From positions 1 to 40,853 of the forward strand of contig JACQPN010000006.1 in the NCBI GenBank assembly GCA_016207515.1: a stretch of DNA of 40,853 nucleotides, in the 5' to 3' direction. Every line of letters starts with the position of its first letter. The first letter of the stretch is position 1. This DNA comes from Euryarchaeota archaeon (GTDB taxonomy: Archaea; Thermoplasmatota; SW-10-69-26; JACQPN01). Shown one piece after another: positions 174 to 16,592 of the stretch. The notes below the pieces were generated by a model. It did no database searches, had not been told where the DNA came from, and was given only the letters and a program-made list of their open reading frames with translations. A program made the position numbers and the translations under genes.

Positions 174-734
174 GTGCCAAGACGCTACAATCTGGTCAGT
201 ATGAAGTGGGGACGTTCTGCGGTCTTTGCCAGCATAGCGATAATCGGGGGGGTCTACGCGATCGCCATCGCGCCCGCCTTTGTCGGTTTCCCGGAAGAGC
301 TAGACGCGGTCATCGGCACGACTCAATTCGAGAACGTGCCGGGAGGCGACTCCATCTCGTCGGGTGCTCTTGGCATGACCTTCTCGCATTCTATCATCGG
401 ATTCGGCGCGCTCGTCCCCGGGGAATCCTCGGCCGCGGTCGAACTTGAAGTCACGAACTCGGGGGCGCTCCCGTTCACGCTCTCCGTCTCCGCGACGGAC
501 ATGACCGACGCGGCGAGCGGTGCCTCCATCCCGGCGTCCAAGATAAGTTACGCAACGAGCGCTTCCGGCCCGGGACAAAGCCTCGCCGAGGAACAGAAGA
601 TCCCGGGTCTTTCGCTCTTGCCGGGCGAGTCCGCTTCGATATTCATCCGGCTCAAAGCCCCATACGGCGGCTCCCAGTGGCTTCCCGCGGGCGATTACCA
701 GGGTTCCATCACGATCACGGCAAAGGGGGTCTGA
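174..734 (+). CDS. Secreted beta-sandwich protein, first gene of surface operon
   Basis: A 186-residue protein with an N-terminal signal sequence or signal anchor (hydrophobic stretch about residues 15-37), followed by one predominantly beta domain (about 63-183). This domain aligns with the C-terminal domain of the next gene. Shared landmarks are VSATDM, ASIPA followed by [KR]I-x-Y, an LLPG turn and a final LPAG-x-Y-x-GSI strand. The alternating Gly/Ser/Thr strands resemble small subunits such as camelysin/TasA or WxL-type domains, but no diagnostic motif of those families is visible and there is no sorting signal or Cys. The GTG start is chosen because the TATA spacing makes it leaderless; ATG 201 is the alternative. 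The stop lies 2 bases before the next ATG, so co-translation is likely. The exported location is well supported; a structural role in the envelope or a fibre is inference. Confidence 0.8.
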   Translation: MPRRYNLVSMKWGRSAVFASIAIIGGVYAIAIAPAFVGFPEELDAVIGTTQFENVPGGDSISSGALGMTFSHSIIGFGALVPGESSAAVELEVTNSGALPFTLSVSATDMTDAASGASIPASKISYATSASGPGQSLAEEQKIPGLSLLPGESASIFIRLKAPYGGSQWLPAGDYQGSITITAKGV

Positions 735-736
735 AG

Positions 737-1609
737 ATGAACGAAGACGACAAGCGGAACGTCCGGTTCTTGGTCGTCCTCTTCATGCCCCTGCTCTTCG
801 CCTCGACCGCGTGGGCGGATCAAGTCCACAGCCAAGCGAGTGTGAAGAACAAGGGGCCTCACGTCGTCGGCATCGACTTCGCAGATGCCGATGATGACGA
901 GGGCACCCCTGGAATACAGATAAGCCCAGTGCCGGGTGGGAGTCGCACGTTCTCCCTCATGGCGCATGCGCAAGACGACAACGGGTGGCAGGACATCTCA
1001 GGCATGAGCCTGAAGTTCAAGCGCCCCGACGGGTCGCAGGTGGGAGGCGACGTCTCCGGCGCCGACCGCGGCCACCAAGGGCGCTCCCGCGACTTCGCGG
1101 CCTCGTTCACGCTCCAACACTACGACCCACCGGGAACTTACGAACTCGAAGCGGAGGTCTCGGACGGAGCTGGCGACAAGGAGAGCCTCATCGTCGTCGT
1201 CACCGTCCAGCAGCTACTCGCTTTCAGCCTCGATGCAAGCTCCATCAGTTTCACGGCCGGTAGCCTCGACCCGGGTTCCTCGACCCACTCGGGACCCTCG
1301 ACCGTCGGCATCATAAACAAGGGCAACGTGAAGATTGACTTGCAGGTCTCGGCCACGGACATGGCCGCCCAAGGGTTTGACGCCTCCATCCCGGCCGGTA
1401 GGATCAAGTACAGTAATGCAGCCGACATGGCGGGCGAGGTAGGGCTCGCAAGCGCACCATCGACCGACGCGTCGTTCGACCTTCTGCCAGGTTCGGGCGC
1501 CGTGCGCTCCGCGTACTTCGACATACACGTGCCGACCGGCGACGAGCAGTTCGTCCCGGCCGCCACCTACACTGGCTCGATCAGCATCGGAGCGGTGGTG
1601 AGCCAATGA
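737..1609 (+). CDS. Secreted two-domain beta-sandwich protein
   Basis: A 290-residue exported protein with a signal peptide (about 1-27, cleavage after AWA). Domain A (about 30-158) begins with V-K-N-x-GP and carries DDNGWQDISG followed by a PDG turn, and ends in a tyrosine-rich strand. Domain B (about 160-287) is homologous to the previous gene's domain (VSATDM, ASIPA, LLPG). Domain A recurs in the convergent gene at 3077-4561 (VANSGP, DTNGRRDIS, DDG), linking the two transcription units functionally. The ATG at 737 is preceded by GGGGGT and lies just after the previous stop, so an upstream in-frame extension overlapping that gene is rejected. It overlaps the next gene by ATGA. No known enzyme motif is visible; an envelope or appendage subunit is the likely role. 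Confidence 0.8.
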   Translation: MNEDDKRNVRFLVVLFMPLLFASTAWADQVHSQASVKNKGPHVVGIDFADADDDEGTPGIQISPVPGGSRTFSLMAHAQDDNGWQDISGMSLKFKRPDGSQVGGDVSGADRGHQGRSRDFAASFTLQHYDPPGTYELEAEVSDGAGDKESLIVVVTVQQLLAFSLDASSISFTAGSLDPGSSTHSGPSTVGIINKGNVKIDLQVSATDMAAQGFDASIPAGRIKYSNAADMAGEVGLASAPSTDASFDLLPGSGAVRSAYFDIHVPTGDEQFVPAATYTGSISIGAVVSQ

Positions 1610-2940
1610 AGTCCGCCACGATCATGACCCAACTCGCTTTGGCGCTCGTGACCATGCTCGCCGCGACCTCGTTGGCGGCGGCGCAGACCAACAACGCAAC
1701 GAACAGCACGGGCAATGGCAGCGGTTTCGGCGTGACGCCCGTGGAGTTGGAGTTCACCGACCCCGCGCTTCTACGTGGCCAGGCCTACGAGGGCCAGTTC
1801 CGGTTGAACAACCAGTTCGACGAGACGCTCACGATCACGACTGAACCACAGGGTGTGATGGCCTCGTGGATCTCCGTGAATCCGGCCAATCCGTTCACGA
1901 TTTCACCCGGCACGGCGAGGATCCTGAAAGTCACGCTCACCGTCCCGGCGGACGCGGCGAACGGCGACTATGCTGGCGCCGTGCGCATCCACGCCCAAAG
2001 CGGCGGCTCCCCGGCCGGTTCCGGCGCGAGCGTCAACATGGAACTCGTCCCCGCGATCACGGCCAAGGTCGGCGGCGTCGAGACCTTGAGGTTCTCCCTT
2101 GAAGCCGCGAAGATAGCGGATGCCGAGGCGGACAAGCCGTTGAGCGTCATCGTGGACGTGATCAACACGGGAAACGTCCGCGCGGCGCCCAGTTTCGACG
2201 TGCAAGTCTACGATGAGAACGGTGATTCCGTCCTCGTCGAGACCATCCAAGGTTCGAGTGTGCCGGCTAGCGGGCACGCGACGCAAGCGCCCCGCACCGT
2301 CAAAGGCCTCCCCGTGGGCGAGTACGAAGCCACGGTCGCGCTCTCCGAAAACGGCGACCTCGCTCCCTTCCGTGGGCTCCTCTTCAAAGTGGTCCCGGCG
2401 GGCACGCTGTCGCTTTCAGAGGGCAAACAAGGCTCCTTCGTGTCGCTCGATGCGGACAGGGCCGTGAAGCCGAACGGACTCGCGAAACTCTCCGCCGCGT
2501 TCAAGAACACGGGTGCCAAGGACATCATCAACGCCAAGCTCAACGCGGAGATCTCGCTCGATGGCGAACGCATCGCGGTCATCACGTCCGACCCCGTGTT
2601 CGTCCCTGCGGGCGAAGAGATGGAGATCCCGATGTACTGGACCGCGGGCGAAGCCGGGACCTACAAGGTCACCGGTTGGGTCACGTTCGACGGATTGAAG
2701 AGTGTTTCCAAGGACGTGGAGATCCTCGTAAGCTCCACCGCGTCAGGCTCGACGGACGGCTCGGGCTCGAAGTCGAACACCATGACCGGCGGTTCGAACG
2801 ATTCGACGGGTTCGAAGGCCAGCGATGATTCAGGAAAGAGCAGTGATCAAGGCGCTCGCACGCCGGGCCTCGGCTTGCTCGAGGCGTTGAGCGTCGCGGC
2901 TGTCGCCGGGATCGCATTCGGCCGCAGATCCAGGAAGTAG
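1606..2940 (+). CDS. Surface protein with Ig-like domains and PGF-CTERM-like sorting signal
   Basis: A 444-residue exported protein: signal peptide (1-26, ending LAAAQ), an N-terminal domain (about 42-130) with GVTPVELEF, RG-x-x-YEGQF and GDYAGA strands, then two or three more Ig-like segments (INTGNV, KNTGAKDI). A Ser/Gly/Asp/Thr-rich linker (about 375-415) leads to a C-terminal tripartite signal: RTPGLGLLEA, hydrophobic helix, tail GRRSRK. That matches PGF-CTERM-type archaeosortase substrates with Leu for Phe. The N-terminal domain resembles the chaperone-like DUF916/NEW3 proteins that bacteria pair with WxL subunits, so this may be the anchor for the two preceding proteins; that pairing is an analogy, not a demonstrated homology. 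It overlaps the upstream stop (ATGA) and is the last gene of the operon. Confidence 0.85.
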   Translation: MKSATIMTQLALALVTMLAATSLAAAQTNNATNSTGNGSGFGVTPVELEFTDPALLRGQAYEGQFRLNNQFDETLTITTEPQGVMASWISVNPANPFTISPGTARILKVTLTVPADAANGDYAGAVRIHAQSGGSPAGSGASVNMELVPAITAKVGGVETLRFSLEAAKIADAEADKPLSVIVDVINTGNVRAAPSFDVQVYDENGDSVLVETIQGSSVPASGHATQAPRTVKGLPVGEYEATVALSENGDLAPFRGLLFKVVPAGTLSLSEGKQGSFVSLDADRAVKPNGLAKLSAAFKNTGAKDIINAKLNAEISLDGERIAVITSDPVFVPAGEEMEIPMYWTAGEAGTYKVTGWVTFDGLKSVSKDVEILVSSTASGSTDGSGSKSNTMTGGSNDSTGSKASDDSGKSSDQGARTPGLGLLEALSVAAVAGIAFGRRSRK

Positions 2941-2957
2941 GCGCCGCCTTCAAATCG

Positions 2958-2973
2958 CCCGAGGTCCTTCGGG
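2958..2973. terminator. Weak hairpin between convergent genes
   Basis: CCCGAG/TTCGGG forms a 6-pair stem (one G-T wobble) with a 4-base loop, 17 bases after the stop at 2940. The pyrimidine-rich stretch from 3051 to 3100 would serve as the T-rich part for the plus strand. Confidence 0.3.
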
Positions 2974-3047
2974 TGCATTTGCCGCAGGACGCCCACGTGC
3001 AGGAATTGGACGCCATTAGCGACAGTGGCCGGCGAGCAAACCACGCC

Positions 3048-3090
3048 GGTCTAGTTTCTCTTCTACTTCCGCAGGTCTAGTTTCTCCTCT
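3048..3090. repeat. 17-base imperfect direct repeat at the convergent gene end
   Basis: GGTCTAGTTTCTCTTCT (3048-3064) recurs with one mismatch at 3074-3090. The second copy contains the stop codon and last codons of the minus-strand gene, so the 3' end appears to have been duplicated. Confidence 0.6.
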
Positions 3091-4561
3091 GCTTCTTCTT
3101 TGCATGCATCATTGCGGATCCCGCGACGAGCGCGATTGGAAGGGCCTGGGTCGGCGCATCCGCTTCGTTCGAGGACTCTGATGCGGCGACGGCATCGACC
3201 ACCGGGGTGGCAGGCGGTTCCACCTCCACGTCCAAGTTGTCGCGTTCCGTCGCGGATCTAAGGCCTGTCGCCGTCCCATCAAGGGCGATAAGGATCGTGC
3301 CCGGCTCAACGGCCGGTGCCGTTATCGGCGCGCTCGGCGTCGAACTCATGCCAAAGGGAAGTGGCAATGGGTTCGGGGGGACCGGGTCAGAAGGTCTCTT
3401 GATCATGATGCTTGCGGTATCGATCGCGTTCCATGTGTCCTTCGCCGTGATGCGCAGGGTTTGCGGCGCATCCGCGTAGGGGACCCGCGTCCCATAGGAT
3501 TGAGTTCGTCCTGAGAAATCGAAGTCGTTGGAACCGGCGGCAAGGGCCACCGCCTCCTCGTTCGGAAGAAGTGCTACCGTGAACCGCGTTCCGTCGTCCG
3601 TCGTGGCCTCGACTGCGGAGATGTCGCGACGCCCGTTCGTGTCCGAGACTTGGAAAACGACCGTCGCGCCGCCGTCACGCGCAGAATCGACGACCCGCTT
3701 CGCTCCGATGCGGGGGCCGGAGTTGGCGACGCTTAACGATACCGACACCGAGTGCCCGGCCCCGATGATCGCGCTCCCGGGCTCATCGCTCGCCGTCGTC
3801 GATGAGGATGGCGCCGGTTCTACGCCCGTCTTTTCAGGCTCGATGGTCTCTTTCCCGCCAGTCAACGTCGGCGTGTCTGTGGCGTCCGCGTGTGACGTGC
3901 TGCCGGGGGAGCTAGTCTCCGTGAGGCCCGCAAGTGTCGTCGACGACGCTACGGCATCCGTGCCCGTCGAAGCGGGCGACGACGGACCGGTGGCGGCTGG
4001 TTGCGTTGCGGATGTGGTAGGTTCCTTGTTCGTGGCGCTCGACGCGTCGATCACGGTCGCGGACGGCGGCGCGTCGTCGCTTTGCTCCATGGTCGTCGGT
4101 CCGTGTCGTGTGCCATCGCTCGTCGTACCGGTCTCTTCGGCGCTGTCTGATCGGGTGACATCGGTTGACGGATCGGCAACCTTCTCAGCGGGCGAGTCCT
4201 CCAACGGACCGTCTAGAGAGACCCCAGCGGTGTCGGCGTTTTCTGTGGCTTCGCTCGTGGATGTCCCGTCGCGTCCAGCGTTCGCTCCGGTTCCATCCGT
4301 CGCTTGCGCATCGGTGCCCTCCCCGATGTCGGCCGGACGCTGGTCGTTGAAAACCTGGGGCGCCGGAGCCTCGATGGGTCGTTCGCCCATGAAGGACATC
4401 CTCGCGATGGCGGTCGCGGCGCTCGCCGTGCCGTCTACCATCGAATGCACCGTGGCCATCGCTTGGCCCACTATGGCCACCTCGCCGCTCCCGGGCATTG
4501 CCATGGCGGCGCCCACGAGGGCGGCGCCCATGAGCACGCCCACTACCACCGACAGCCTCAT
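3077..4561 (-). CDS. Cell-surface protein with long Ser/Thr/Asp-rich stalk
   Basis: A 494-residue protein with a signal peptide (1-21, ending AAMAM), a low-complexity Thr/Ser/Ala/Asp/Glu/Pro region (about 70-265) typical of a glycosylated stalk, and one globular domain (about 269-388). That domain matches domain A of the gene at 737: VANSGP, DTNGRRDIS, DDGTRF and a closing KDTWNA strand. The C-terminus is a short hydrophobic helix (about 473-485) plus KKKQRRN, a membrane anchor without a visible PGF motif. A minus-strand TATA element centred 27-28 bases upstream of the ATG supports a leaderless start and argues that this strand, not the long antisense frame, is coding. It converges with the three-gene operon; the shared domain suggests both belong to one surface structure. 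Confidence 0.8.
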   Translation of the reverse strand: MRLSVVVGVLMGAALVGAAMAMPGSGEVAIVGQAMATVHSMVDGTASAATAIARMSFMGERPIEAPAPQVFNDQRPADIGEGTDAQATDGTGANAGRDGTSTSEATENADTAGVSLDGPLEDSPAEKVADPSTDVTRSDSAEETGTTSDGTRHGPTTMEQSDDAPPSATVIDASSATNKEPTTSATQPAATGPSSPASTGTDAVASSTTLAGLTETSSPGSTSHADATDTPTLTGGKETIEPEKTGVEPAPSSSTTASDEPGSAIIGAGHSVSVSLSVANSGPRIGAKRVVDSARDGGATVVFQVSDTNGRRDISAVEATTDDGTRFTVALLPNEEAVALAAGSNDFDFSGRTQSYGTRVPYADAPQTLRITAKDTWNAIDTASIMIKRPSDPVPPNPLPLPFGMSSTPSAPITAPAVEPGTILIALDGTATGLRSATERDNLDVEVEPPATPVVDAVAASESSNEADAPTQALPIALVAGSAMMHAKKKQRRN

Positions 4562-4585
4562 TCGCAGTGCAGGCCGCGCAGGGGC

Positions 4586-4593
4586 TCATAAAG
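4586..4593 (-). promoter_or_regulatory. TATA-like box, leaderless
   Basis: The minus strand reads CTTTATGA here. Its centre is about 28 bases from the ATG at 4561. Confidence 0.45.
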
Positions 4594-4741
4594 AATCTCG
4601 GAATTTTCTATTCGAGAACGCTCCAAGACCAGAAAACCATGTCACGGTGTATCATGGTAAGAAGTCTGATTTCGCGGCGCGCACGGACCATCGGTGGGGA
4701 GTACCACGTCGTTCCGGTGCCGCCGCGCCGCTATGGGTCCG

Positions 4742-5575
4742 CTACTTCGCGATCCAGTGCGGAGCGCCCGCCAAGGTCGTCCGCTTGAGCTTCCCCGCTT
4801 TCTCGAACGATTCGAGCTCCTTTTCCATCTTCTCCTGCGGCACGCCGAAGACGCGCGACAACTCGATGAGCGGCGCCGCGCCGTGGTGTCTCACGTAACC
4901 GATGACATCCGTCGGTGTCGCCTTCTTGAGTTTGCCGCCGGAAAGCCAGTCGATCGCGCCTTCCACTTGCTCCGGGTCGAATGCGTGGTCGATGGTCACG
5001 ACCGTGCCGTGGCCGTCGGTGATCGCGATGTTGTAGAACCCGATGTGGACGTCGAACGCCTCCCCCTGCTTCTCGAACGCCGCCTGGCAGGCCTCCTCAT
5101 CCGCGTACGCCTTCTCGAACTTGGAAACGTCAAGGCCGGCCGCCTTCGCAGCTTCCGTGAAATACGCATCGTCTCGCGGCCAATCGCCCTCTACGACCGT
5201 GCGGCGAAGGATTTCGCGCACGAATCGAGCGCCCTTCGAGTCGCCTTGCTTGTACGCGGCCATGGCGGCCATCGTCGCGGGAAAGACGGTCTCCGGCATG
5301 ACGAGGCCATCATAGTCCGTCGGGATCGGGACGCCCATGATGTCGATCGCCTCCTTCGCCCACTCCGTCATGTCCTTCATCGAGTTGAGCTCGTAGTGCT
5401 TCTTGTACTCCGCCAGGTCGTTGTAGACGGCGAGCGTCATCGTCTTCACGTCGATCTGATTGCCATAGACAAGCTTCAGACGGTTCATCAGGGCCTCGTA
5501 GCCCCATGACCACCAGCAGGTGGGCGCGGTCGCGTGATAGACCTGGATCCGGTGTTCGTGGTCGTGATGCGTCAT
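4742..5575 (-). CDS. DsbA-family thioredoxin-fold protein with C-terminal winged helix
   Basis: A 277-residue, apparently cytosolic protein (no signal peptide). It starts with a histidine-rich MTHHDHEHR and then YHATAPTCWWSWGYEALM, the strand-active-site-helix pattern of DsbA/FrnE-like proteins. The active-site position reads C20-W-W-S23, a CXXS monothiol version rather than CXXC. The remainder of the fold follows (VMPETVFPA, FYNIAITDG, TIDHAFDPEQVE). Residues about 222-277 (VIGYVRHHGAAPL, LSRVFGVPQEKM, LKRTTLAGAPHW) look like a small winged helix. ATG 5575 is preferred over GTG 5587 because the TATA element at 5605-5612 predicts transcription starting near 5582. Family members include thiol oxidoreductases and GST-kappa-like isomerases; the substrate is unknown. 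The fusion suggests a redox- or ligand-responsive role, which is inference. Confidence 0.8.
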   Translation of the reverse strand: MTHHDHEHRIQVYHATAPTCWWSWGYEALMNRLKLVYGNQIDVKTMTLAVYNDLAEYKKHYELNSMKDMTEWAKEAIDIMGVPIPTDYDGLVMPETVFPATMAAMAAYKQGDSKGARFVREILRRTVVEGDWPRDDAYFTEAAKAAGLDVSKFEKAYADEEACQAAFEKQGEAFDVHIGFYNIAITDGHGTVVTIDHAFDPEQVEGAIDWLSGGKLKKATPTDVIGYVRHHGAAPLIELSRVFGVPQEKMEKELESFEKAGKLKRTTLAGAPHWIAK

Positions 5576-6093
5576 GAGAAACCCCACGTCGCGAGCGGGC
5601 CGACGCTATATCTGGTTTGGCTGAGGCCCAGGGAACCAGGCCCAGGCCTCCGGCACCCGACAAGGAAACACCCGAGGGTCGAAAGTCACGAAGCGGTCGG
5701 CGGACGAAACGCAGGCGATTCCCTGCGTCGGAAGGCCCCACTCTTGCACCGGTTCAAATGGGCGACGCGTCAAATACATAGTCGACAAGGAGCAACCCTG
5801 CGGTGGAAAGATAGCTGCCGTCGGGTCGTCGCTCCCCGACCGGTGGCGAAGACAACACCTCGGATCAGCGCAAGCCCCAATCGCCAAACCAGAAGCCAAG
5901 CAACGCTTGGCCCGCCACCGGCCCTCCCTCTTACAGGCGGAGGCAAGAAGGCACGGGAGGCCGGCCGTGAAGCGAACGAGCTTCCGGCAGACTGGGTGGA
6001 GGGGGACAAACCCCCTCCCCTTATTCCACGTAAGGTCGAATCGCGGTCCACACAAGTGGATGACTCTCGGTCCGCACCGTCACGTTCCCCGCA
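5576..6093. other. Gene-free 518-base interval with several perfect hairpins
   Basis: The only open frames here have arginine/proline-rich translations of non-coding character. Perfect inverted repeats are visible: 5709-5715/5722-5728 (7 pairs), 5895-5901/5905-5911 (7 pairs, 3-base loop) and 5998-6005/6011-6018 (8 pairs, loop ACAAA). It lies downstream of the AHSA1 gene and upstream of the DsbA-like gene, both minus strand. I checked by eye for tRNA, RNase P and SRP RNA signatures and found none. It may hold a terminator plus a structured RNA of unknown type. Confidence 0.35.
5605..5612 (-). promoter_or_regulatory. TATA-like box of the DsbA-like gene
   Basis: The minus strand reads AGATATAG. 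The predicted transcription start is near 5582, just before ATG 5575. Confidence 0.4.
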
Positions 6094-6522
6094 TCACTTC
6101 TTTAGCCGTCTCTTCGGTAGGCACGAAATGTTCTCGGCGATGTATTCTCTCCAAGGTTTCCAGTAGTGCTCGTGCCAACCCGCATCAAGTGCTTCATACT
6201 GGTCGTCCGGGACGTTCGCGTGCACGAGATCCAAGACGGCGCCGTTCATGTCCTTCGAGAACGATAGCACCAACAAGGAATCGGCGTCATCCTCTCGCCA
6301 GTCGGAGCCGCGCCATGACTGCACGATGAGCCGCTTGGCGACGACTGCCAGGTTAACGCCTTCGATGAAGCCGTCCCAAGCCGTGAACGGGGCGCCAAGC
6401 TTCATCGAGATCATCGCTCCACCGCCCGTCGCCGCGGAGTGTCTTTTCGGATCGAGGTAAGTGTCGAACAAGTCGTCGGGCGTCGTCGCGAACTTCACGC
6501 TCTGGATGATGGTCCTCGCCAT
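6094..6522 (-). CDS. SRPBCC / AHSA1 family protein
   Basis: A 142-residue soluble protein with the helix-grip fold signature of the AHSA1 (Hsp90 ATPase activator C-terminal-like) branch of SRPBCC: an initial strand ARTIIQSVKF, a helix (DDLFDTYLDPKRHSAATG), strands around FTAWDGFIEGVN and IVQSWRGSDW, and a final long helix with GWHEHYWKPWREYI. Length is normal for the family. These proteins bind hydrophobic ligands or act as co-chaperones; the ligand here is unknown. A TTAA element near 6561-6566 (minus strand) gives a short leader. It probably stands alone: the neighbours are separated by about 270 and 520 bases. Confidence 0.85.
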   Translation of the reverse strand: MARTIIQSVKFATTPDDLFDTYLDPKRHSAATGGGAMISMKLGAPFTAWDGFIEGVNLAVVAKRLIVQSWRGSDWREDDADSLLVLSFSKDMNGAVLDLVHANVPDDQYEALDAGWHEHYWKPWREYIAENISCLPKRRLKK

Positions 6523-6798
6523 AGGGTCGGCCTTCCAAGGAGGGACACGCGGCTCCCCGCTTAATCATGCCCTTTCGCCGTTCGAGCCGACCGGGTGAAA
6601 CGGGATAATCTTCTCCCGCCATCGAACAGCTGTCTGCCACGAGGGACGCGTCAGACCCACGGCCAAGACGCGTCTCGTGGCGGCACTCTCACAAGCGAGA
6701 TCCGCCACCTCTCCCGTGGACACCGATCCCACGTGGTGAGATGGGACGAACCCCCGGATCGTGGGACGGGTCCGCCCTGTCCCAGCACCGAGGGCGCG

Positions 6799-7635
6799 TC
6801 AGTGACGGCGATGGAGGATCTCCACCCCACTTCGCCGGCGCACGAGTCTCGCTTTGAGGTCGTAGCCGTAGGCGACCCCGGCCGCGAGCCCCGCAAGATG
6901 CGCGAGGTGGGCGATCTTGGTCCCGTCGCCTAGCCCGAAGATGTCGAGGACCGCGAAAATCGCCGTCATCGCGTAAAGCGGCATCGGGAATATGATGAAG
7001 ATGACGGTTAGGTTCGGGTAGAGGATGGTCACGGCACCGAGCACGCCCATCAAAGCGCCGCTGGCGCCGAGCACGGTTCCCGGGAACAGGAGAGACTGCG
7101 CGACGCCGGCCACGAGGCCGCACACGATGAAGAACCCGAGGAACCGCGCCGGCCCTATCTCCCGCTCCAGGTAGGGGCCGAAGAAGTAGAGGAAGAGCGA
7201 GTTGAAGAGGAGATGGAAGGGGTTGTACGGGTCGTGGGAGACGATCGACGTGAGAAGGGTCCACGGGGCGCTTTGGACCGTCCCGACGTTGAGGCCGAAA
7301 AGTGCCAGGACCACGCGCGGGTCCCCCGAGTAAAAGAGGACCGCCCACTCGGCCAGGTACACGACCACGAGTGTCAAAAGCAGTTTCTTGTTCATCGAAC
7401 CGCGCGTGAAGGTCCGTACGCGCGACGCGACCGACGGCCCGCGCGCGACGGGTGAGCGCCACTCGGGTTGGAAGAACTGTCCCGAAGACCTCGCGCTCTC
7501 CCGATATTGCGAGAGGGCCGCGCATTGGTGGCTCTCCGGCAATCGGTGGTTGACGCAGAACGCGCGGTTGCAGAACCTGCATTCGAAGGGCAGATACTCC
7601 TCACGGCCGCACAGATGGCAGCTTCCCGAGACCAT
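6799..7635 (-). CDS. Rhomboid intramembrane protease with N-terminal AN1 zinc finger
   Basis: A 278-residue protein. Residues 6-38 form a complete AN1-type zinc finger: C6, C9, C19, C22, C27, H30, H36, C38. A linker (about 45-80) precedes six hydrophobic segments. The rhomboid signature is intact: H141-x3-N145 (oxyanion side), G-A-S192-G with the catalytic serine, and H246 in the AHLAHLAGLAAG helix. It should cleave transmembrane substrates in the membrane; the cytosolic AN1 finger may recruit substrate or ubiquitin-like modifiers, which is inference. A symmetric TATA element lies 27 bases upstream, implying a leaderless mRNA from a promoter shared with the gene on the plus strand. Confidence 0.92.
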   Translation of the reverse strand: MVSGSCHLCGREEYLPFECRFCNRAFCVNHRLPESHQCAALSQYRESARSSGQFFQPEWRSPVARGPSVASRVRTFTRGSMNKKLLLTLVVVYLAEWAVLFYSGDPRVVLALFGLNVGTVQSAPWTLLTSIVSHDPYNPFHLLFNSLFLYFFGPYLEREIGPARFLGFFIVCGLVAGVAQSLLFPGTVLGASGALMGVLGAVTILYPNLTVIFIIFPMPLYAMTAIFAVLDIFGLGDGTKIAHLAHLAGLAAGVAYGYDLKARLVRRRSGVEILHRRH

Positions 7636-7656
7636 CGAGGCGGCGAACGCGCCATG

Positions 7657-7667
7657 CTATAAAATAG
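7657..7667. promoter_or_regulatory. Symmetric TATA element between divergent genes
   Basis: CTATAAAATAG reads CTATTTTATAG on the other strand, a good archaeal box A both ways. Its centre (7662) is 27 bases from the rhomboid ATG at 7635 and also 27 bases from an ATG at 7689 on the plus strand. TBP binding alone could therefore drive both directions. Confidence 0.6.
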
Positions 7668-7784
7668 GTTGTTCGCGCTGCACCGTCCATGGTACAGGGG
7701 CCTTTCTCCGGCGCGGAAGCGAGGGGCGGTAGGGAAGCCAGAAAACCCAACCCGCGGTCGCGACCGATCCTACCGTTTACTCCT

Positions 7785-8342
7785 ATGCCGATCGGCTCGG
7801 CCTTGAGCGCCGACCCGGCGGTCGCGACGATGATGGCGGCGGGCCGTCTCATCGCTGCCGCGCGTCTTCCGGCGAACACGGTCGTCGACCTCTCGTCACG
7901 CTACGGTCCTCGAGTCACCGCCACGGCCGCTGGGTCTCCCTGCGGAAAACTTGAGCCCGATCACTTCGTCGAGATCGTCGACTACGATCCCAGGCTCAAC
8001 AATCTCACGTTCATCGGACCCGCCCCTGCCGGAGATTTCGCGCCCCTCCACTGGCTGATCCATCGCGCGAAAAGGGAAGTGAACGCCGTCATCTCGGTGA
8101 GAGACGACGTCGTTGACGAGGCGCGAAGGAAAGGCGCGGATTTCACGGCGACGACGGGCCCGCCGGCGCGCGACTTTCTGGAACTCGCCATGCAAGTTCT
8201 CGCCGGGTTGAGGGCGTCGAACTACGTCGTCACCGAAGGGCACGGTATCGTCTGCGCAGGAAAGACGCACGACGAGGTCGCGAAGACGGTGGTGGGGCAC
8301 CGGGACATGGCGCAACGGTTCCTTGCCGGACGGACGAGTTGA
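7785..8342 (+). CDS. Class II aldolase/adducin-like protein lacking the HxH metal motif
   Basis: A 185-residue protein with the class II aldolase/adducin layout: N-terminal helix MMAAGRLIAAARLPANTVVDLSSRYG (where GN-x-S-x-R is usual), central strands (FVEIVDYDPRLNNLTFIGP), helix APLHWLIHRAKREVNAVISV and C-terminal EGHGIVCAG. Canonical enzymes carry an HxH zinc motif after NAV; here the sequence is ISVRDD, so two zinc ligands are missing while His153 of EGHG remains. It is probably not a standard metal-dependent aldolase. I chose ATG 7785 because GC-rich third positions begin there and family members start about there. The upstream in-frame ATG at 7689 matches the TATA spacing and may instead mark the transcript start, adding 32 low-GC3 codons or a 96-base leader. 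Confidence 0.7.
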   Translation: MPIGSALSADPAVATMMAAGRLIAAARLPANTVVDLSSRYGPRVTATAAGSPCGKLEPDHFVEIVDYDPRLNNLTFIGPAPAGDFAPLHWLIHRAKREVNAVISVRDDVVDEARRKGADFTATTGPPARDFLELAMQVLAGLRASNYVVTEGHGIVCAGKTHDEVAKTVVGHRDMAQRFLAGRTS

Positions 8343-8407
8343 AGGGTTTTCTCTTTCGCGTCCGCGCTCCATCATAGTGAACCCTCCGGTTGCACTTCAC
8401 GGCCGTT

Positions 8408-8524
8408 GGAGAACACTTGTTCAACAAACCATATCGGGGACCTCCGGTAAGCCGCGTTACGGGCTTTTCGTGGCTAAGCCTTCTCCAGATGGGGAGAACC
8501 AAGGTTCAACAAAGCCTATATATT
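8408..8524 (+). promoter_or_regulatory. Tandem operator-promoter repeats before the M14 peptidase
   Basis: Two copies of a roughly 27-base unit (8408-8434 and 8493-8519) are spaced 85 bases apart. Each holds a perfect dyad, GAACACTTGTTC (8411-8422) and GAACCAAGGTTC (8496-8507), followed by AACAAA and a TATA-like run. The second is followed by the best TATA box, CCTATATATT (8515-8524), predicting a start near 8546. The first has CATAT at 8430-8434. A dimeric regulator binding next to the TATA box is the likely reading. Confidence 0.55.
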
Positions 8525-8544
8525 GAGCACGGCAAGTCTGGTCA

Positions 8545-8568
8545 TCCCTTCTTAAAGGGAAATAGGAG
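8545..8568 (+). promoter_or_regulatory. 5' leader hairpin and ribosome binding site
   Basis: TCCCTT/AAGGGA (8545-8550/8555-8560) forms a 6-pair hairpin at the very start of the predicted transcript. The Shine-Dalgarno AGGAG (8564-8568) follows directly, 9 bases before ATG 8578. The hairpin could protect the 5' end or tune initiation. Confidence 0.45.
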
Positions 8569-8577
8569 TCGAGTCCG

Positions 8578-10899
8578 ATGAAAAAAGCCCGCGCCAAAAC
8601 CTTCGCGATCCTCGCTGTCTGCTTCATGGCACTCTCGGTCGTTCCGGCCGGAGCGCTTCCTACGCCAGGCCTGTCGGGCTCAGCCTCGCAGACCGTACTC
8701 GGGCGCGTCTTCCCGGAAGCCATGCAGACGAACGATTACATCTCGTACGACGAGGCGAGACAAGGCCTGGACATGCTCGCCGCGGCTCATAGCGACCTCA
8801 TGAAGGTCATCGAGGTCGGTCCCTCCGTCGGTTGGGTCAACGCGGCGACCGGACAAAAGGAGCCGAGCCAGGTCATAATGGTGGAGATGACGAACACCAA
8901 GTCGGCGATCGCCCGCGAGGACAAGATCGTCGTCCTCTACATGCTCTCGATCCACGGCAACGAGAAGGGCGGCCGCGAGGGGGGACTCCGGGTCATCGAA
9001 GACCTCGTGACGACGCAGGGGATCGTCGTCGCGAAGCCCGAACTCAAGAAGTACCTCGATTACATGATACTCCTCTTCCTTTTCCCGAACCCAGACGGTT
9101 GGACGCACGAGGAGGCCGAGTACCGGGCGAACTGCCCCGGTTACTTCCCCGTGCCGGCTCCGACCCCTGACGGGTGCATCGAGAGCCAGAACTTCGTCCG
9201 CGTCAACGGCAACGGCGTGGATCTCAACAGGCAAGGGCCGACCGTCGGATGGTCGCGCGGCCAAGGCTCGCACGCGTCCATGTCGCAGCCCGAGTCGCAG
9301 GCCTACTTCAATTACATCAAGGCGAACTACGACAAGATCGACTACGCCACGGACATCCACGGGATGTTGCAGCCGGCAGACGGCGACCAGAACGTGGTGA
9401 ACCAGAACGCGCAACCGCCGGATCCGATGGACGGGGCGCCGAACCCCGATGACTTCGTCCACACGGGCCCCGTGATGGAGAACGACGTGAGGTCGCGTGG
9501 CCATTTCGTCCTCACGATGCTTCCCGCCGGCCGGTTCACGCCGAGCGAGATGGTCGATATCACGTCGCTTGCGGAGCTCGTGAAGGAGCGCCTCAACGCC
9601 GACCCCGCCTTCACCGAGTGGAGCACGCTGCCGCAGTCCGGGGTCGCCTGGGGAGGCGAGTTCAACGAGTGGGGTACCGTCTGGGACACGATCGGTTACA
9701 CGGACAGCGGTTTCTCGTCCGACTTCTTCGCGCAGGACCAGGGCCTCAACGCGCCGGGTGTCGACTTCGAGCTCGCGTACAACCACGTCACGTTCGACAA
9801 CTACTACCCAGGCCTCGCTGCGCGCATCAACGCGTACCACGTCGAGGCCGTCCGCATAATCGTCTCCGCCTTCATGGACCAGGCGGCAAAGCAGATCAAG
9901 AACTCGATCGAGACCAACGGCAAGAGGACGGCCTATCTTGACAACCCGAAGGTCGTGACCAACGCCGACGATGGCAAGCCATTGGAGGGCTGGGCGAAGG
10001 AGAACCCGTTCGACGACACGTGGGACCTCGACCACATCGTCTTCCAAGCGACGCCGAACGACTACTTCGCGGACCTCAAGCCGTTCGTCGCCGACGGCGA
10101 CAGGCCCGGTGTGCTGATGCCGATCGTCGCACGGGAACTCGCGACGCCGGCGCTTTCGAACTACGACAACCTGATAGTCGCCGGAAGCGCCGCGGAGACG
10201 ATCAGCGGGAACGCCCAGGCGATCACCGCGCTCAAGGACTGGGTGTCGGCCGGCGGGAACCTCGTCGTCACCGATTCGGCGTTGACGCTTCTTGGCGAGA
10301 TGGGGATCGTGCCTTCGGCCTCCATCCACCAGAGCTTCTACTACGCCGGCTGCAGTAACCTGGTGCGCGAACACGCCTTGAACGTGGGAGTGCGGGGTCT
10401 TGCAAGGATGCTCTACGAGCCCGTGCCGCTCGGTTACACCATCTCCAGTAACTCCGCCCCGGGTTATTACTTCGACCTGGATGCGATGAAGGGTGCGGGA
10501 GCGGACATCGCCGGCTACGGCGGCGCGGGCCAAGGTTGCGTCGAGCGCGTGAACCAGACGAACCTCGGCATCGTGAAGCTGGGAAGCGGCAAGGTCACGT
10601 TCATCGGCGCGATGCTGCCGGACCCGTCGGAGGAGTTCTACCACCCGTACGGGCTCGACTCGTACGCGACTACCTATTCCGCGAACCAGATCCTCAGAAA
10701 CGCCTTGGGTTGGGAGCAGGTATACGCGCAGCCGCCGAAGGTCCTCGACGACCTTGGAAAGGAGGTCACGGCAGACCTCGGCGCAGGGCTCGACGCGCAG
10801 ACGACGGCTCCCTCCAGGACACCAGGCTTCGAGACGATGGCGCTCGTCCTGGCAGGGGCATTCGTTGCCCTCGCCGGACGCCGGAAGCGAAGCGCCTAG
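8578..10899 (+). CDS. Secreted M14 zinc carboxypeptidase with PGF-CTERM anchor
   Basis: A 773-residue exported metallopeptidase. The signal peptide is residues 1-26 (ending PAGA). The M14 domain (about 50-450) has the zinc ligands H126 and E129 (HGNE) and H261 (DIHGM), the substrate-binding DLNR at 215-218, and the likely catalytic Glu398 in VDFELAYNH. A second alpha/beta domain follows (about 480-720; NLIVAGSAAETISGNAQAI, GNLVVTDSALTLLGE), resembling glutamine-amidotransferase-like folds used as accessory domains. The end is a clear PGF-CTERM signal: SRTPGFETMA, hydrophobic helix, GRRKRSA. It should trim C-termini of extracellular peptides while anchored to the S-layer or lipid. It has its own promoter with two dyad sites, suggesting regulated expression. 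The neighbour is convergent. Confidence 0.95.
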   Translation: MKKARAKTFAILAVCFMALSVVPAGALPTPGLSGSASQTVLGRVFPEAMQTNDYISYDEARQGLDMLAAAHSDLMKVIEVGPSVGWVNAATGQKEPSQVIMVEMTNTKSAIAREDKIVVLYMLSIHGNEKGGREGGLRVIEDLVTTQGIVVAKPELKKYLDYMILLFLFPNPDGWTHEEAEYRANCPGYFPVPAPTPDGCIESQNFVRVNGNGVDLNRQGPTVGWSRGQGSHASMSQPESQAYFNYIKANYDKIDYATDIHGMLQPADGDQNVVNQNAQPPDPMDGAPNPDDFVHTGPVMENDVRSRGHFVLTMLPAGRFTPSEMVDITSLAELVKERLNADPAFTEWSTLPQSGVAWGGEFNEWGTVWDTIGYTDSGFSSDFFAQDQGLNAPGVDFELAYNHVTFDNYYPGLAARINAYHVEAVRIIVSAFMDQAAKQIKNSIETNGKRTAYLDNPKVVTNADDGKPLEGWAKENPFDDTWDLDHIVFQATPNDYFADLKPFVADGDRPGVLMPIVARELATPALSNYDNLIVAGSAAETISGNAQAITALKDWVSAGGNLVVTDSALTLLGEMGIVPSASIHQSFYYAGCSNLVREHALNVGVRGLARMLYEPVPLGYTISSNSAPGYYFDLDAMKGAGADIAGYGGAGQGCVERVNQTNLGIVKLGSGKVTFIGAMLPDPSEEFYHPYGLDSYATTYSANQILRNALGWEQVYAQPPKVLDDLGKEVTADLGAGLDAQTTAPSRTPGFETMALVLAGAFVALAGRRKRSA

Positions 10900-11037
10900 G
10901 CGCCTCTCGTCGCCCGTGTGGGCGCGGAACGCGTCGTTTCATCGCGGTGGGCGCTAGAAAGAGCCGTGCTCAAGGCGGATTGCGTGAACCGTGCCCCCTG
11001 ATATTGGGACTTTGACGCCTCTTCGACGGTGGACGCC

Positions 11038-11880
11038 TCATTCGCCGAGGGAGACCCACGCCTGTACCGACGACGGATCGGTCTCCAAGGCGGGAAGCTG
11101 CCCGTCAGCGCCTGTCACAAGCTTGAAGTTAGGCGAAAACGCGTGGCCAAGGACGTTGACGAGCGACAGGACGGGGATCGGCCACCCCGGCTGCGACCCT
11201 ACGTCGCCGGGAAGGTCTTCTGGTTTTCCGGCCGTGATGAGTGCCCGGTGCTTGCCGAAACGTTCGACCGACACCGGGATGACGAGCGGCACGACCTTCG
11301 CAAGCAGCACATCGAGTACGTCCGAGTGGGTCCACGGGCGTTCGCCCTCCTCGATCCCGTAGACGGTGGCGATCGGGGCGCGTAGCGCGGTGAGTGTGTC
11401 TTCGAGGGCATCATCCGGCAGGCCCCACCACGTGCCGGCGGCGTAGGAAGCCCTTCGTTTGAAGGTGTCAAGAGCTAGAAGGAGGAGACATGATAGCGTG
11501 TCCCGGATCGCCCCACGGGCCAACTCGACTTCCAGCGCTTCGACGCGTTCGGGGGCCTGGGCGCGAGGCTCCGGGCCTGTGGGCGGTCTCGGGCCGGGCT
11601 GTTCGTCGTCAAGTTCCCCGGCCGAACTCACGTCCGCGAAAGAATGGACCTCGCCCTCGATGACGGCGCCCGCCTCGACTAGTACGGGGCCTCGTGACGA
11701 GACATCGCCCTTGACGCGCGCGCCGCCCGAAACGACGACGCCGCGCAATCCCACGACGTCCCCGGAGCACACGGCACCTTCCCCGATTACGAGGACGCCC
11801 GAAGCCGAGATGCCTGCCGGCACTCGCGTACCCGGAGGGATCTGGAGGTCGCCGGCGAACCTAGTCAGTCTTCGCTGCAT
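11038..11880 (-). CDS. Bactofilin-like protein with unrecognised C-terminal domain
   Basis: A 280-residue protein. Residues about 10-90 show the short right-handed beta-helix repeats of bactofilin/polymer-forming cytoskeletal proteins: recurring V-x-G and GDV turns (SGVLVIGEGAVCSGDV, GVVVSGGARVKGDV, GPVLVEAGAVIEGEV). After a proline-rich linker (about 92-110), a helical-looking domain (about 112-275; DTLSCLLLLALDTFKRRA, LDVLLAKVVPLVIPVSVERF, ITAGKPEDLPGDV) is not one I recognise. No signal peptide. Bactofilins polymerise and often scaffold partners at membranes; that role here is inferred from the N-terminus only. GGAG sits just before ATG 11880, with a minus-strand TATA-like AAATAG near 11921-11927. 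It is divergent from the sensor kinase at 12043. Confidence 0.7.
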   Translation of the reverse strand: MQRRLTRFAGDLQIPPGTRVPAGISASGVLVIGEGAVCSGDVVGLRGVVVSGGARVKGDVSSRGPVLVEAGAVIEGEVHSFADVSSAGELDDEQPGPRPPTGPEPRAQAPERVEALEVELARGAIRDTLSCLLLLALDTFKRRASYAAGTWWGLPDDALEDTLTALRAPIATVYGIEEGERPWTHSDVLDVLLAKVVPLVIPVSVERFGKHRALITAGKPEDLPGDVGSQPGWPIPVLSLVNVLGHAFSPNFKLVTGADGQLPALETDPSSVQAWVSLGE

Positions 11881-11920
11881 GGGAGGAGTCTCCTTCTATG
11901 CACGATTCTTCGTCACTTCT

Positions 11921-11997
11921 CTATTTGGACTTGTCGAGGGGGGAGTCGCAACGGCGCAGCGTCGGGGCTCCTTCTCCTTGGAAGGCAGCCTAAATAG
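11921..11997. promoter_or_regulatory. Divergent promoters of the bactofilin-like gene and PAS kinase
   Basis: The minus strand CAAATAG (plus 11921-11927) fits a start near 11897 for the bactofilin-like gene. The plus strand CCTAAATAG (11989-11997) fits a start near 12020 for the kinase at 12043. Confidence 0.4.
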
Positions 11998-12042
11998 TTG
12001 TCGCATGTCGGTTAAGTACGGGGGGCAAGGAAGGACTCTCCC

Positions 12043-14961
12043 ATGGGCGGCCAAGATCCGGGCGCTCCAGCCGACGCGCCAGCTACGAGCCCGCAGATGG
12101 GGAAGGTGTTCTCCGCGGAGAAGCGCATCGCGGGCGTGCGGCTTGCGGTGATCGCGACCGGCACCATCCTCTACCCCATGGTTCTCGACAAGACGGGCAC
12201 TATCCCCTGGCTTGCGTATTCGCTGCTTGGCCTTGCCTGGGTGTATGGGACGTACGTCTACGTCGCGGAGCCGTATCGAAGCAACCCCGTGCTCCTATCC
12301 TCATACGTGTCGGTCGTCACGGACGCCTTCTTCACAATGCTCTGGCTCTACGCGACGGGCGGCTTCGAATCCCCGTTCTACATCGCCCTGTACCTTGCGG
12401 TCGTGGCGGTGGCTTTCCGGTTCGGGCCCAAGGAGACGATGTTCGCCGCGACCGCGTATGCGGCGGGCTACGTGGCTCTTCTCTGGCTCACCGGCGAGTT
12501 GGTAGCTCACGAAGGCGAGACGTTGACGCGGGTCACGTACATTTTTCTCGCAGGCCTCGTGGGCGGCGTCATCGCAAAGGAGATGCTCGTAGAGACGGGC
12601 GAAAAGCAGGAGGCGCGCCTCCTCGCCCAGGATCTTGACCGCCAGGTCAGGGAACGGAAGGAGGCCGAAAAGGAACTTCGTCGACAGAAAGACCAGTACG
12701 AGACGCTGCTCCAAGCGCAAAGCGACGCCGGCGAAGCGGTCGCCGTGGTCGACATCTTGACCCAGCGCGTCATCTACGCCAACGACGCGATCCTCCGCGT
12801 GCTCGGCTACACCAGGGACGAACTCCAAGGCACGCCCTTCACCGCGTTTGCGGCACCCGAAAGCATGGACATAGTGGTCTCTCTGGTAAAGGCGGCGATT
12901 GGGGGAAAACGCCTTGGTGAACGTTACGAGGTGGTCGTGCTGAGAAAGGACGGGAGACGAGTGACCGTGGAGGTGACGGCGAAACGCCTCGAAGGCCAAC
13001 CGGGCCTGAAGTTCATGATCGTTGGGCGCGACGTAACGGAAAGGAAGGCGCATGAGGTCGCCCTCGAACAGAGCGAACGCCGGTTCATGGCGCTTTCGAA
13101 CGCGGCCCTGGTCGGCGTCGTCATCCACGAGAACGGAAAGATCGTGGAGTGCAACGCGGAGTTCGCGAGGATGTACGGCTATTCGCGCGACGAGCTCTTG
13201 GGCAAAAACGGCCTCGACCTCATCGCCCCGGCCTCCGTCGAGGAGGTGAAACGGGGTCTAATGGACCTCCGTGGCGACACCTACCTAGTCACCGCCCTGC
13301 GAAAGGACGGTTCCACGTTCCTCATGGAAGGAGCCGCGCGCGATCTGACGTTCGAAGGACGACCCGCGAGTGTCGCGACGGTCCGCGACGTGACGGCGAG
13401 CAAACGGGCAGAGACCGAGATAAAGGAGACCGCATCGCTCTATTCGGCGACGCTCGAATCAACGGGCGACGCGATCGTCGTCATCGGCCGAGGGGGAAAG
13501 ATCAGAAGCTACAACCAGCGCTTCATTGAGATGTGGAAGATCCCCGAAAGCATGATGCGATCCGGCGACGACGCCAAGGCGATCGCGTCCGTTCTGGGCC
13601 AGCTTTCCGATCCCGAAGCCTTCGTCAAGAAAGTGGATGCCCTGTACGCCGACCCCGACGCCGAGAGCTTCGATGAAATCCGATTCCGCGACGGGCGCAT
13701 CGTCGAGCGCTATTCGCGCCCTCAAAGGGTATCGGGAAAGAGCGTGGGCCGCGTCTGGAGCTTCAGGGACGTGACAGAACGCAGGCAGGCGGAGGAAGCG
13801 CTCAGGAACAGCGAGGAAAAATACCGGCGGGTCGTGGACAGCATCCAAGACGGCTACTACGAGGTGGACCGTCATGGCACGATCATTCTTTTCAACGATT
13901 CCCTCGCCCGCCTCACGGGACTCGGAGCCGACGAGCTTTTCCACGCGAACTACGCGGATTTCATGGACAAGGCGGAGGCGTTCCGGGTCTTTCAGGCCTT
14001 CAACAGCGTCTGGCAGACGGGGGGCCCGATGGACAGCTTCCCTTTCACCCTGCGCCACAAACGCGGCGAGGAGACCCCCGTCGAGTGCTCGGTCTCACTC
14101 GTGGTCGACGACCACGGGCATAAGGCAGGCTTCCGGGGCATCCTTCGTAACGTCGCCGAGAGGCGGCGCGCCGACGAACTTGCCGAGCAGGCGAAGGAGC
14201 TTGAACGCCTCAAGGACATGAACGAGTTCAAGGCGCGTTTCCTCAACACGGCGGCCCACGAACTGAACACGCCGCTCACCCCGATAAAACTCCAGTTGCA
14301 CCTGCTTCGCACCGAGGCGAAGGGCACGCTCGCCCCCGGACAGGCCCGCGCCGTCGTCCTCCTGGAGCGCAACATCGACCGGCTAGGTCGGCTCGTCGGC
14401 GACCTCCTCGAGGCCTCGAGGCTCCAAGCGGGAAAGCTCGGCATCGAACACAAGCCAGTGGACGTGAACGTTGTGGCCCGGGAGGCGATTGAATCATTCA
14501 ACGAGCCCGCGCGAAGGGCAGGCGTGGAACTCGTGCTGCACGAAGGCCCCAAGGCGATCGTCCTCGGCGACGACAAACGCCTGACCCAGGTCCTCTACAA
14601 TCTCTTGAGCAATGCCGTGAAGTTCACGGAGGAAGGCGGCCGCATCGACATCGACACGGGCACCCACCGGGGCGCGGCGGTCGTTCGCGTGAGCGACACC
14701 GGCGTCGGCATCCCAAGACCCGACATGAAAAGGCTTTTCCAACCCTTCAGCCAAGTCCCCGATCCCGGAGGAAAGCCGCGCCCGGGCACGGGACTTGGCC
14801 TCTACGTCAGCAAAGGGATAGTTGAACTCCACGCCGGCCGCATCTGGTGCGAAAGCGCCGGAAGGGGACAAGGGGCAAGTTTTGCCTTCGAGATACCGCT
14901 CGCGAGCGAATCGAACCACACGCCTCCGTCGGCCGAGGGCACTACGACGGGCCAGGCATAG
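12043..14961 (+). CDS. Membrane sensor histidine kinase with four PAS domains
   Basis: A 972-residue hybrid-free kinase. Five to six membrane helices occupy about 28-182 and are followed by a charged coiled coil (about 185-220). Four PAS domains follow: about 220-335 (ends RDVTERK), 342-455, 462-582 ([12 protein letters not shown]) and 588-706. The HisKA helix pair carries the phospho-acceptor H739 in AAHELNTPLTP. The HATPase domain has an N-box LYNLLSNAVKF, G1 DTGVGI and G2 GTGLGL. All catalytic motifs are intact, so it should autophosphorylate. No receiver or output gene is adjacent; the partner is unknown, possibly one of the two orphan-like receivers in this window. The third PAS domain is nearly the same module as one in the kinase at 25627. 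Confidence 0.95.
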   Translation: MGGQDPGAPADAPATSPQMGKVFSAEKRIAGVRLAVIATGTILYPMVLDKTGTIPWLAYSLLGLAWVYGTYVYVAEPYRSNPVLLSSYVSVVTDAFFTMLWLYATGGFESPFYIALYLAVVAVAFRFGPKETMFAATAYAAGYVALLWLTGELVAHEGETLTRVTYIFLAGLVGGVIAKEMLVETGEKQEARLLAQDLDRQVRERKEAEKELRRQKDQYETLLQAQSDAGEAVAVVDILTQRVIYANDAILRVLGYTRDELQGTPFTAFAAPESMDIVVSLVKAAIGGKRLGERYEVVVLRKDGRRVTVEVTAKRLEGQPGLKFMIVGRDVTERKAHEVALEQSERRFMALSNAALVGVVIHENGKIVECNAEFARMYGYSRDELLGKNGLDLIAPASVEEVKRGLMDLRGDTYLVTALRKDGSTFLMEGAARDLTFEGRPASVATVRDVTASKRAETEIKETASLYSATLESTGDAIVVIGRGGKIRSYNQRFIEMWKIPESMMRSGDDAKAIASVLGQLSDPEAFVKKVDALYADPDAESFDEIRFRDGRIVERYSRPQRVSGKSVGRVWSFRDVTERRQAEEALRNSEEKYRRVVDSIQDGYYEVDRHGTIILFNDSLARLTGLGADELFHANYADFMDKAEAFRVFQAFNSVWQTGGPMDSFPFTLRHKRGEETPVECSVSLVVDDHGHKAGFRGILRNVAERRRADELAEQAKELERLKDMNEFKARFLNTAAHELNTPLTPIKLQLHLLRTEAKGTLAPGQARAVVLLERNIDRLGRLVGDLLEASRLQAGKLGIEHKPVDVNVVAREAIESFNEPARRAGVELVLHEGPKAIVLGDDKRLTQVLYNLLSNAVKFTEEGGRIDIDTGTHRGAAVVRVSDTGVGIPRPDMKRLFQPFSQVPDPGGKPRPGTGLGLYVSKGIVELHAGRIWCESAGRGQGASFAFEIPLASESNHTPPSAEGTTTGQA

Positions 14962-15010
14962 GAAAGAGGACGCGCGCCCCCCACGCCGCCACTTGACGGC
15001 AGGTCAAAAG

Positions 15011-15018
15011 ATTTTAAC
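15011..15018 (+). promoter_or_regulatory. TATA box of the MaoC-CitE operon
   Basis: ATTTTAAC is centred about 28 bases before the GTG at 15043, giving a leaderless transcript independent of the upstream kinase. Confidence 0.55.
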
Positions 15019-15042
15019 GCGACCAGAGGCCTTCCCGTCCAC

Positions 15043-15507
15043 GTGCCGGGCAGATCTTACGAGGACTTCCAGGTCGGCGAAGTGATCATGCACACCATGA
15101 AACGCACGATCACGGAGTCGGACAACACGCTCTTCTGCTCGCTCACGATGAACACGCAGCCCCTCCACATGGACGAGGAGTACGCGAAGAAAAGCGCGTT
15201 CGGGGCCCGGATCGTGAACGGGCTGCTCACGATGGCGCTATCCGTGGGGATCAGCGTCCGCGACCTCACCGAAGGCACGCTCATCGCGAACCTCGGCTAC
15301 GACCGCGTGGAGCACCCGAAGCCCGTCTTCCACGGCGACACCATCGGCGTCGAGACGAAGGTGCTCTCGAAGCGCCGCACCTCGCAGCCCGGGCGCGGCC
15401 TCGTGGAGTTAGCGCACACGGTGAAGAACCAGAACGGCGAGGTCGTCTGCAAGTACCAGCGCACGGTCCTCATCCAGGTGCGCGACCCGGAAGAGAGCGG
15501 TGCTTGA
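15043..15507 (+). CDS. MaoC-family acyl-CoA hydratase/dehydratase
   Basis: A 154-residue single hot-dog protein of normal length. It has the family opening YEDFQVGEV, then the hydratase-2 loop in the variant form MNTQPLHMDEEYA (residues 36-48). The catalytic His42 is kept, but the usual Asp of D-x-NP-x-H reads Asn37. GARIVNGLLTMAL and a VFHGDTI strand complete the fold. This MNT-x-PLH variant is, as far as I recall, the form that sits next to CitE-like lyases in actinobacterial leucine and itaconate gene sets. The likely reaction is hydration of an enoyl-CoA such as itaconyl- or mesaconyl-CoA; the substrate is inference. The GTG start is supported by the TATA spacing. The stop overlaps the next start (TGATG), so the two are co-translated. 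Confidence 0.9.
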   Translation: MPGRSYEDFQVGEVIMHTMKRTITESDNTLFCSLTMNTQPLHMDEEYAKKSAFGARIVNGLLTMALSVGISVRDLTEGTLIANLGYDRVEHPKPVFHGDTIGVETKVLSKRRTSQPGRGLVELAHTVKNQNGEVVCKYQRTVLIQVRDPEESGA

Positions 15508-16361: not shown

Positions 16362-16540
16362 GATCGCCGGGCAGCAGTACGCCAGAAGCATGACATCACC
16401 ACACCGGACGCGGCCACCCACGGCCCTAGGCGCGCCCGTCGGATGCGCCGATTGATTCGCACGCATTCTAGAGGCTGCACCTGACCCCGGGACAGTGCTT
16501 CGACGCCCGTAGCAAGAACCCGCACCTCGGGAGAAAGCCG

Positions 16541-16548: not shown

Positions 16549-16592
16549 CCATTCCGTCAAACGGGATTAACCAATTCGGCGGAGGGAGAACC

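Follow-up and report, generated by a model that had tools for sequence, protein, structure and literature searches.

WxL gene clusters of Bacillota, made up of a small WxL, a large WxL and a WxLIP protein (PF13731, PF06030 and PF11797), are thought to sit on peptidoglycan. To our knowledge, archaea have no bacterial peptidoglycan for such a system to bind. In these clusters, the WxL domain is believed to be kept stable and in place by the PGBD of the WxLIP protein, which inserts a strand of a beta-hairpin, and the N-terminal sequence of WxLIP carries the motif NQIDKxxxYFDLK (PMC10599100). WxL domains have been reported as exclusively bacterial (PMC9772566). Here we describe an archaeal locus for which a first-pass annotation had proposed a sortase-anchored surface operon with the logic of the bacterial WxL gene sets. 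It encodes what is probably a remote relative of WxLIP, beside secreted proteins that have a domain in common.

The window (the whole stretch of DNA analysed) comprises bases 1 to 40,853 of contig C6, in a genome of 2.67 Mb that is 98% complete; the genes lie at the contig edge, and the sequence 5' of position 1 is outside view. Four reading frames, P1 to P4, are present (Table 1). The best start of P1 is the ATG at 201 and not the GTG at 174, from which the frame is also open. Two nucleotides separate the stop of P1 from the start of P2, and P2 and P3 overlap in the sequence ATGA; these junctions are operon-like and the operon is real. A simple scan found no terminator between the convergent P3 and P4, and a short direct repeat, ggtctagtttctc, lies at 3045-3090, at the convergent 3' ends of these two genes. 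The window also encodes an exported protein similar to M14 zinc carboxypeptidases, whose TPGF tail is clearly of the archaeosortase type (8578-10899, plus strand), a bactofilin-like polymer-forming domain, its match just under the Pfam cut-off, fused to an uncharacterised C-terminal part (11038-11880, minus strand), and two exported HYR-repeat-like proteins (37955-39676 and 39939-40853, both plus strand), the first of which ends in a PxKF domain (NF038114, E 4e-14).

Table 1. Genes of the locus in the window, and a related locus in another genome (G212).
Feature	Position	Strand	Description
P1	201..734	+	177 aa, exported, "small"; signal/TM segment and domain B only
P2	737..1609	+	290 aa, exported, "large"; domain A at about 38-157, domain B at about 160-290
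P3	1606..2940	+	444 aa, exported, putative holder; three Ig-like domains, Ser/Gly/Asp-rich linker, PGF-CTERM-like tail
P4	3077..4561	-	494 aa, convergent; signal segment, stalk, probable domain A, hydrophobic C-terminus and basic tail
G212 locus	L095 (G212:C30:64000-83999) 484-16616	-	seven tandem exported B proteins of 589-857 aa, then a short P3-domain-1 + TM protein

P1 and the C-terminal half of P2 have domain B in common (37% identity over 126 columns, BLASTP E 5e-14), so that the sharing first suspected from the short motifs VSATDM, ASIPA and LLPG in two exported proteins is well beyond chance. The companion suggestion, that P4 carries domain A of P2 (DDNGWQDIS in one, DTNGRRDIS in the other), is weak when P4 is taken alone: BLASTP gave no match between P4 and domain A of P2, and the domain A HMM scored P4 at 9.4 bits, a value that one in 2000 shuffled versions of P4 also attained. 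However, in a genome of another family (G076) a P4-like convergent gene directly after a P3 relative (L032 11619-12242, minus strand) encodes a signal peptide, a domain A (30 bits with the same HMM; E 3.8e-7 in the genome search) and a C-terminal membrane stretch. Because a convergent, C-terminally anchored domain-A protein holds the same place there, domain A in P4 is credible, and P4 probably shares it with P2. The stalk of P4 is about 196 residues long and rich in Thr, Ala, Ser, Asp, Gly and Pro, and the hydrophobic part at its C-terminus is short.

Both the GVTPVELEF domain and the PGF-CTERM-like end that had been noted in P3 were seen there. Its C-terminal tail, TPGLGLLEALSVAAVAGIAFGRRSRK, consists of TPGL, a hydrophobic stretch and RRSRK; this apparently tripartite tail resembles the PGL and PGP tails of other proteins of the same genome, and is absent among TIGR04126 matches. 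By inspection, each of the seven full-length P3 relatives has a hydrophobic stretch and then basic residues at its C-terminus, in line with the C-terminal transmembrane helix of WxLIP, the relative in G076:C36 having a plain membrane helix instead of a PGF-type tail. In keeping with its archaeal origin, the genome encodes archaeosortase A (TIGR04125, 138.9 bits against a cut-off of 75); the exosortase family PF09721 gave no match, and the archaeosortase was recovered by TIGR04125 instead. Furthermore, at least a dozen proteins of the genome, a minimum count, carry PGF, PGL or PGP tails (TPGF, VPGL, IPGP), including forms like those of P3 and of its relative in the genome G002. The search for an archaeosortase that the first-pass annotation had called for was thus positive, but its term "sortase-anchored" has to be dropped, since archaeosortase A belongs to a different enzyme family and an anchor is seen in P3, perhaps in P4 as well, but not in P1 or P2. 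Given the PGF-CTERM-like tail of P3 and the presence of archaeosortase A, the anchoring of P3, as judged from sequence, is probably of the archaeosortase type and not by sortase.

Against Pfam, P3 gave weak and mixed matches to the Ig-like families FixG_C, fn3_5, NPCBM_assoc and WxLIP_PGBD (0.046, domain 1), the first three outscoring WxLIP_PGBD on domain 1, and one P3 relative matched WxLIP_HBD in domain 2 at 7e-5. The Pfam gathering scores of PF06030 and PF11797 were not reached (14.2 against 27.3 bits for P3, 23.2 against 28.9 bits for the best relative), and the sequence NQIDKxxxYFDLK is missing from the P3 family, where the pattern is GxGVxPxxL...LLRGGxxE. By sequence motif and by Pfam threshold, P3 falls outside WxLIP. 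The P3 family was also aligned by hhalign with a WxLIP family of nine bacterial proteins, taken from plasmid records in which they are annotated as WxLIP and gathered with a generic DUF916 query sequence. This alignment had a probability of 96.9% and an E of 1.4e-10 over 223 columns, and was colinear, PGBD then HBD. After removal of signal peptides and tails, the mature parts of the two families scored 64; column shuffling gave at most 19 in 40 trials, reversing the profile gave 20, and control pairs of Ig-like families gave 24-26. Domain 1 of P3 matched PGBD and not HBD, domain 2 matched HBD and not PGBD, and domain 3 matched HBD weakly; single-sequence NEW3-like controls could match one of the WxLIP domains about as well as a single P3 row does, but none spanned both. 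The AlphaFold model of P3, built on a shallow alignment, is of middling confidence (mean pLDDT 67), and Foldseek placed the WxLIP structures 9i25 and 9i1y (E 3e-7) behind many unrelated, generic Ig-like chains, so that the fold comparison does not discriminate. Together, the profile comparisons make P3 a probable distant relative of WxLIP to which one more Ig-like domain has been added.

We searched about 390 genomes of the phylum with P2/P1 and P3 profiles. Seven full-length P3 relatives were found in five genomes of five families (G000, G002, G216, and two each in G076 and G171), and a P2-like gene with domains A and B adjoins the P3 relative in all seven loci. The order is P1-P2-P3 in G000 and in G002, where the P1 orthologue (L031 7607-8137, plus strand) lies beside orthologues of P2 and P3; it is P3-P2-P2 in G076:C17, and P2-P3 in G076:C36, in G216 and in both G171 loci. 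The divergent P2 relatives of G216 and G171 align with the P2 family of the window through both domains (222 columns, E 1.3e-6), and a lone P2 paralogue, 53% identical, lies elsewhere in the genome of the window (C12). An eighth locus, in a sixth family (G212), has seven tandem domain-B genes followed by the gene of a P3-like anchored protein of 184 residues, made of a signal peptide, a domain like P3 domain 1 and a TM helix. P3 domain 1 scored 28.2 bits in this locus (shuffles at most 5.6) and domain B 20.6-26.9 bits (shuffles at most 10.3); the B proteins have an N-terminal domain-B-like segment and C-terminal passengers of several hundred residues, and the locus is possibly a minimal form of the module. 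A B-domain gene is therefore linked to a P3-type gene in 8 of 8 loci from six families, and domain B was present in 0 of 41 background loci around other NEW3-like matches of the phylum. Because the linkage recurs against this background, the pairing of P3 with domain B is specific; the lack of co-occurrence outside the window that was to count against the first-pass annotation did not occur.

The module is patchy and rare (about 5-6 of the 390 genomes). A wider search in the class of G216 and G076 gave no further module, viral contigs (four scans), phages and plasmids gave no relatives, and a scan of genome contigs gave nothing with P3 alone and only the G076 genome with the P2 alignment. In G216 (L092 7749-9877) and G171 (L094 4411-6363) two further genes, alike in both genomes, come after the P2-P3 pair, one for a membrane-anchored BNR-like beta-propeller and one for a small protein of about 205 residues that is secreted; together with the pair they form a larger conserved cluster. 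The G171 contigs C206 and C209 have more P2-like fragments at both contig edges, which suggests a larger multi-copy array split by assembly. A further P2-like gene (6949-8226 of L144, G099:C78:26000-34290) is on a contig that stops before any P3; its chromosomal position corresponds to that in G216, with an RFC-like gene and a small HTH gene ahead of it.

Starting from what is directly observed, that is, gene order, domain sharing, co-occurrence, archaeosortase A and the profile similarity of P3 domains 1 and 2 to WxLIP, we propose that P3 is an archaeosortase-anchored, WxLIP-like holder, that the B-domain subunits are held by it non-covalently and that domain A of P2 is displayed, a proposal to which we would give an even chance. 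After export of P3, archaeosortase A would process its PGF-like tail and fix it to the membrane. We infer that domain 1 of P3, an Ig domain resembling DUF916, takes hold of domain B in the secreted proteins P1 and P2 and stabilises it, probably through an added beta-strand, so that both proteins would be kept on the surface without anchors of their own and domain A of P2 would face outward. P4, stalked, separately anchored and with its own domain A, would be a likely partner or an alternative display form. What accompanies domain B differs between the proteins: nothing in P1, domain A in P2 and a long passenger in those of G212. A P3-type domain 1 is always paired with domain B, even in the two-part locus of G212, and this fits, by analogy, a WxL-like mode of holding.

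It could be argued that P1 to P3 are ordinary Ig-like proteins of a generic surface scaffold, co-transcribed, with a likeness to WxLIP that reflects only the common NEW3/Ig-like fold. The AlphaFold model of P2, from an alignment that was likewise shallow (5 and 3 rows for the two models, with the relatives from the genome search left out), has a mean pLDDT of 76, with 83-93 through much of the domain cores, and folds into two beta-sandwich domains; its best Foldseek matches are RbmA biofilm scaffolds, just as those of P3 are assorted Ig-like chains. As part of the same explanation, P2 might be an RbmA-like linker of matrix or S-layer, which we regard as unlikely in equal degree. The several Ig-like Pfam families matched by single domains of P3, and the controls that match one WxLIP domain, agree with a generic scaffold, but the colinear match of P3 to both WxLIP domains is well above the control family pairs, and linkage in every one of the eight loci, set against none in the background, also speaks against this explanation. 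We judge a generic scaffold unlikely, while giving it serious weight.

A second alternative to the WxLIP-like holder is an extracellular filament, of the TasA/camelysin type or an archaeal bundling pilus or thread, of which P1 and P2 would be the subunits. Donor-strand exchange would join their B domains, and P3 would serve as a chaperone or as the base in the membrane. Proteins with domain B do occur in multiple copies, with conserved N- and C-terminal strands, and archaeal donor-strand filaments are known (PMC9715654). The donor-strand pilins CfaE/CfaB and Csu are among the top Foldseek matches of the P2 model, but these, like its other fold matches, have low TM-scores (0.3-0.4 for the pilins) and are generic, common to many Ig-like proteins. 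Very weak NCBIfam matches of SipW type were obtained in relatives (BsaA 0.11 in P2 relatives, TapA 0.014 in a P3 relative), yet none of the matches to the TasA, camelysin or pilin families was significant, no SipW-type peptidase was seen among the immediate neighbours, and the long passengers of the G212 B proteins are unlike filament subunits. A filament is in our judgement distinctly unlikely. Two other matches were set aside: that of P1 to the 541-residue "Fusion Protein" chain 9mnh (phmmer E 0.003), absent with the family profile, was taken as chance, and that to the RbmA-like CPR pilus protein PamR (E 0.1) was too weak, a literature search for it giving no paper.

The identity of domain B bears on how close the locus is to a WxL cluster. 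No W-x-L motif is present in P1, P2 or P3, the WxL profile PF13731 matches nothing in the genome at E up to 10, and domain B matches nothing in Pfam. In profile comparison with 14 small WxL proteins, domain B scored 26.1, colinear over the whole domain, against a maximum of 20.2 in 100 shuffles; on the same scale, unrelated Ig-like control pairs reach 24-26 and large against small WxL scores 147. The identification of domain B as WxL was withdrawn, since the controls scored alike, and the first-pass expectation of a WxL or camelysin domain finds neither a family match nor more than a borderline profile score. A true archaeal WxL cluster, in which domain B would be a WxL homologue that has lost its Trp-x-Leu motifs, has the probable relationship of P3 to WxLIP and the colinear profile match in its favour, but is made highly doubtful by those control scores and by the missing motif and profile matches.

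Among known systems, the archaeosortase A/PGF-CTERM proteins resemble P3 in the apparently tripartite design of its tail and in the archaeosortase A of the genome, although the P3 motif is PGL rather than PGF and the TIGR04126 model is not reached. RbmA, a tandem FnIII biofilm scaffold, resembles P2 in having two tandem beta-sandwich domains and no anchor, but TM-scores are near 0.3, the domain arrangement is another one, and RbmA has no P3-type anchored partner gene. In TasA/TapA and archaeal bundling pili or threads, secreted beta-sandwich subunits are encoded with a helper or anchor protein, as here; the helper differs, however, and there is no sequence family match. As for the WxL clusters of Bacillota, these likewise have an anchored protein with at least two Ig-like domains beside small and large secreted proteins, and in the P1-P2-P3 set, too, the small and large proteins have their C-terminal domain in common. 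P3, unlike WxLIP, has a third Ig-like domain and a PGF-like archaeosortase signal and lacks the NQIDKxxxYFDLK strand, and P1 and P2 lack the WxL motif and PF13731 match. The resemblance originally claimed therefore survives for the small subunit, the large subunit, the single anchored partner and the colinearity of P3 with WxLIP, and not for domain B; the adjacency of small, large and WxLIP genes is present as layout only, and the P1-P3 set would work like a WxL cluster without being a demonstrated member. We regard it as quite improbable that P3 is a true WxLIP and domain B a WxL domain that has diverged strongly; the locus would then be a WxL/WxLIP module of archaea in which archaeosortase anchoring replaces the binding to peptidoglycan. 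Should domain B turn out to be WxL, the WxL system would be extended to archaea. A related holder-plus-subunit set in archaea, which are without a peptidoglycan wall, would set the core of such systems, in which a shared subunit domain is gripped by an anchored Ig-like holder, apart from the part that belongs to peptidoglycan. It would also open a first route to the function of a class of archaeal surface genes that have no annotation.
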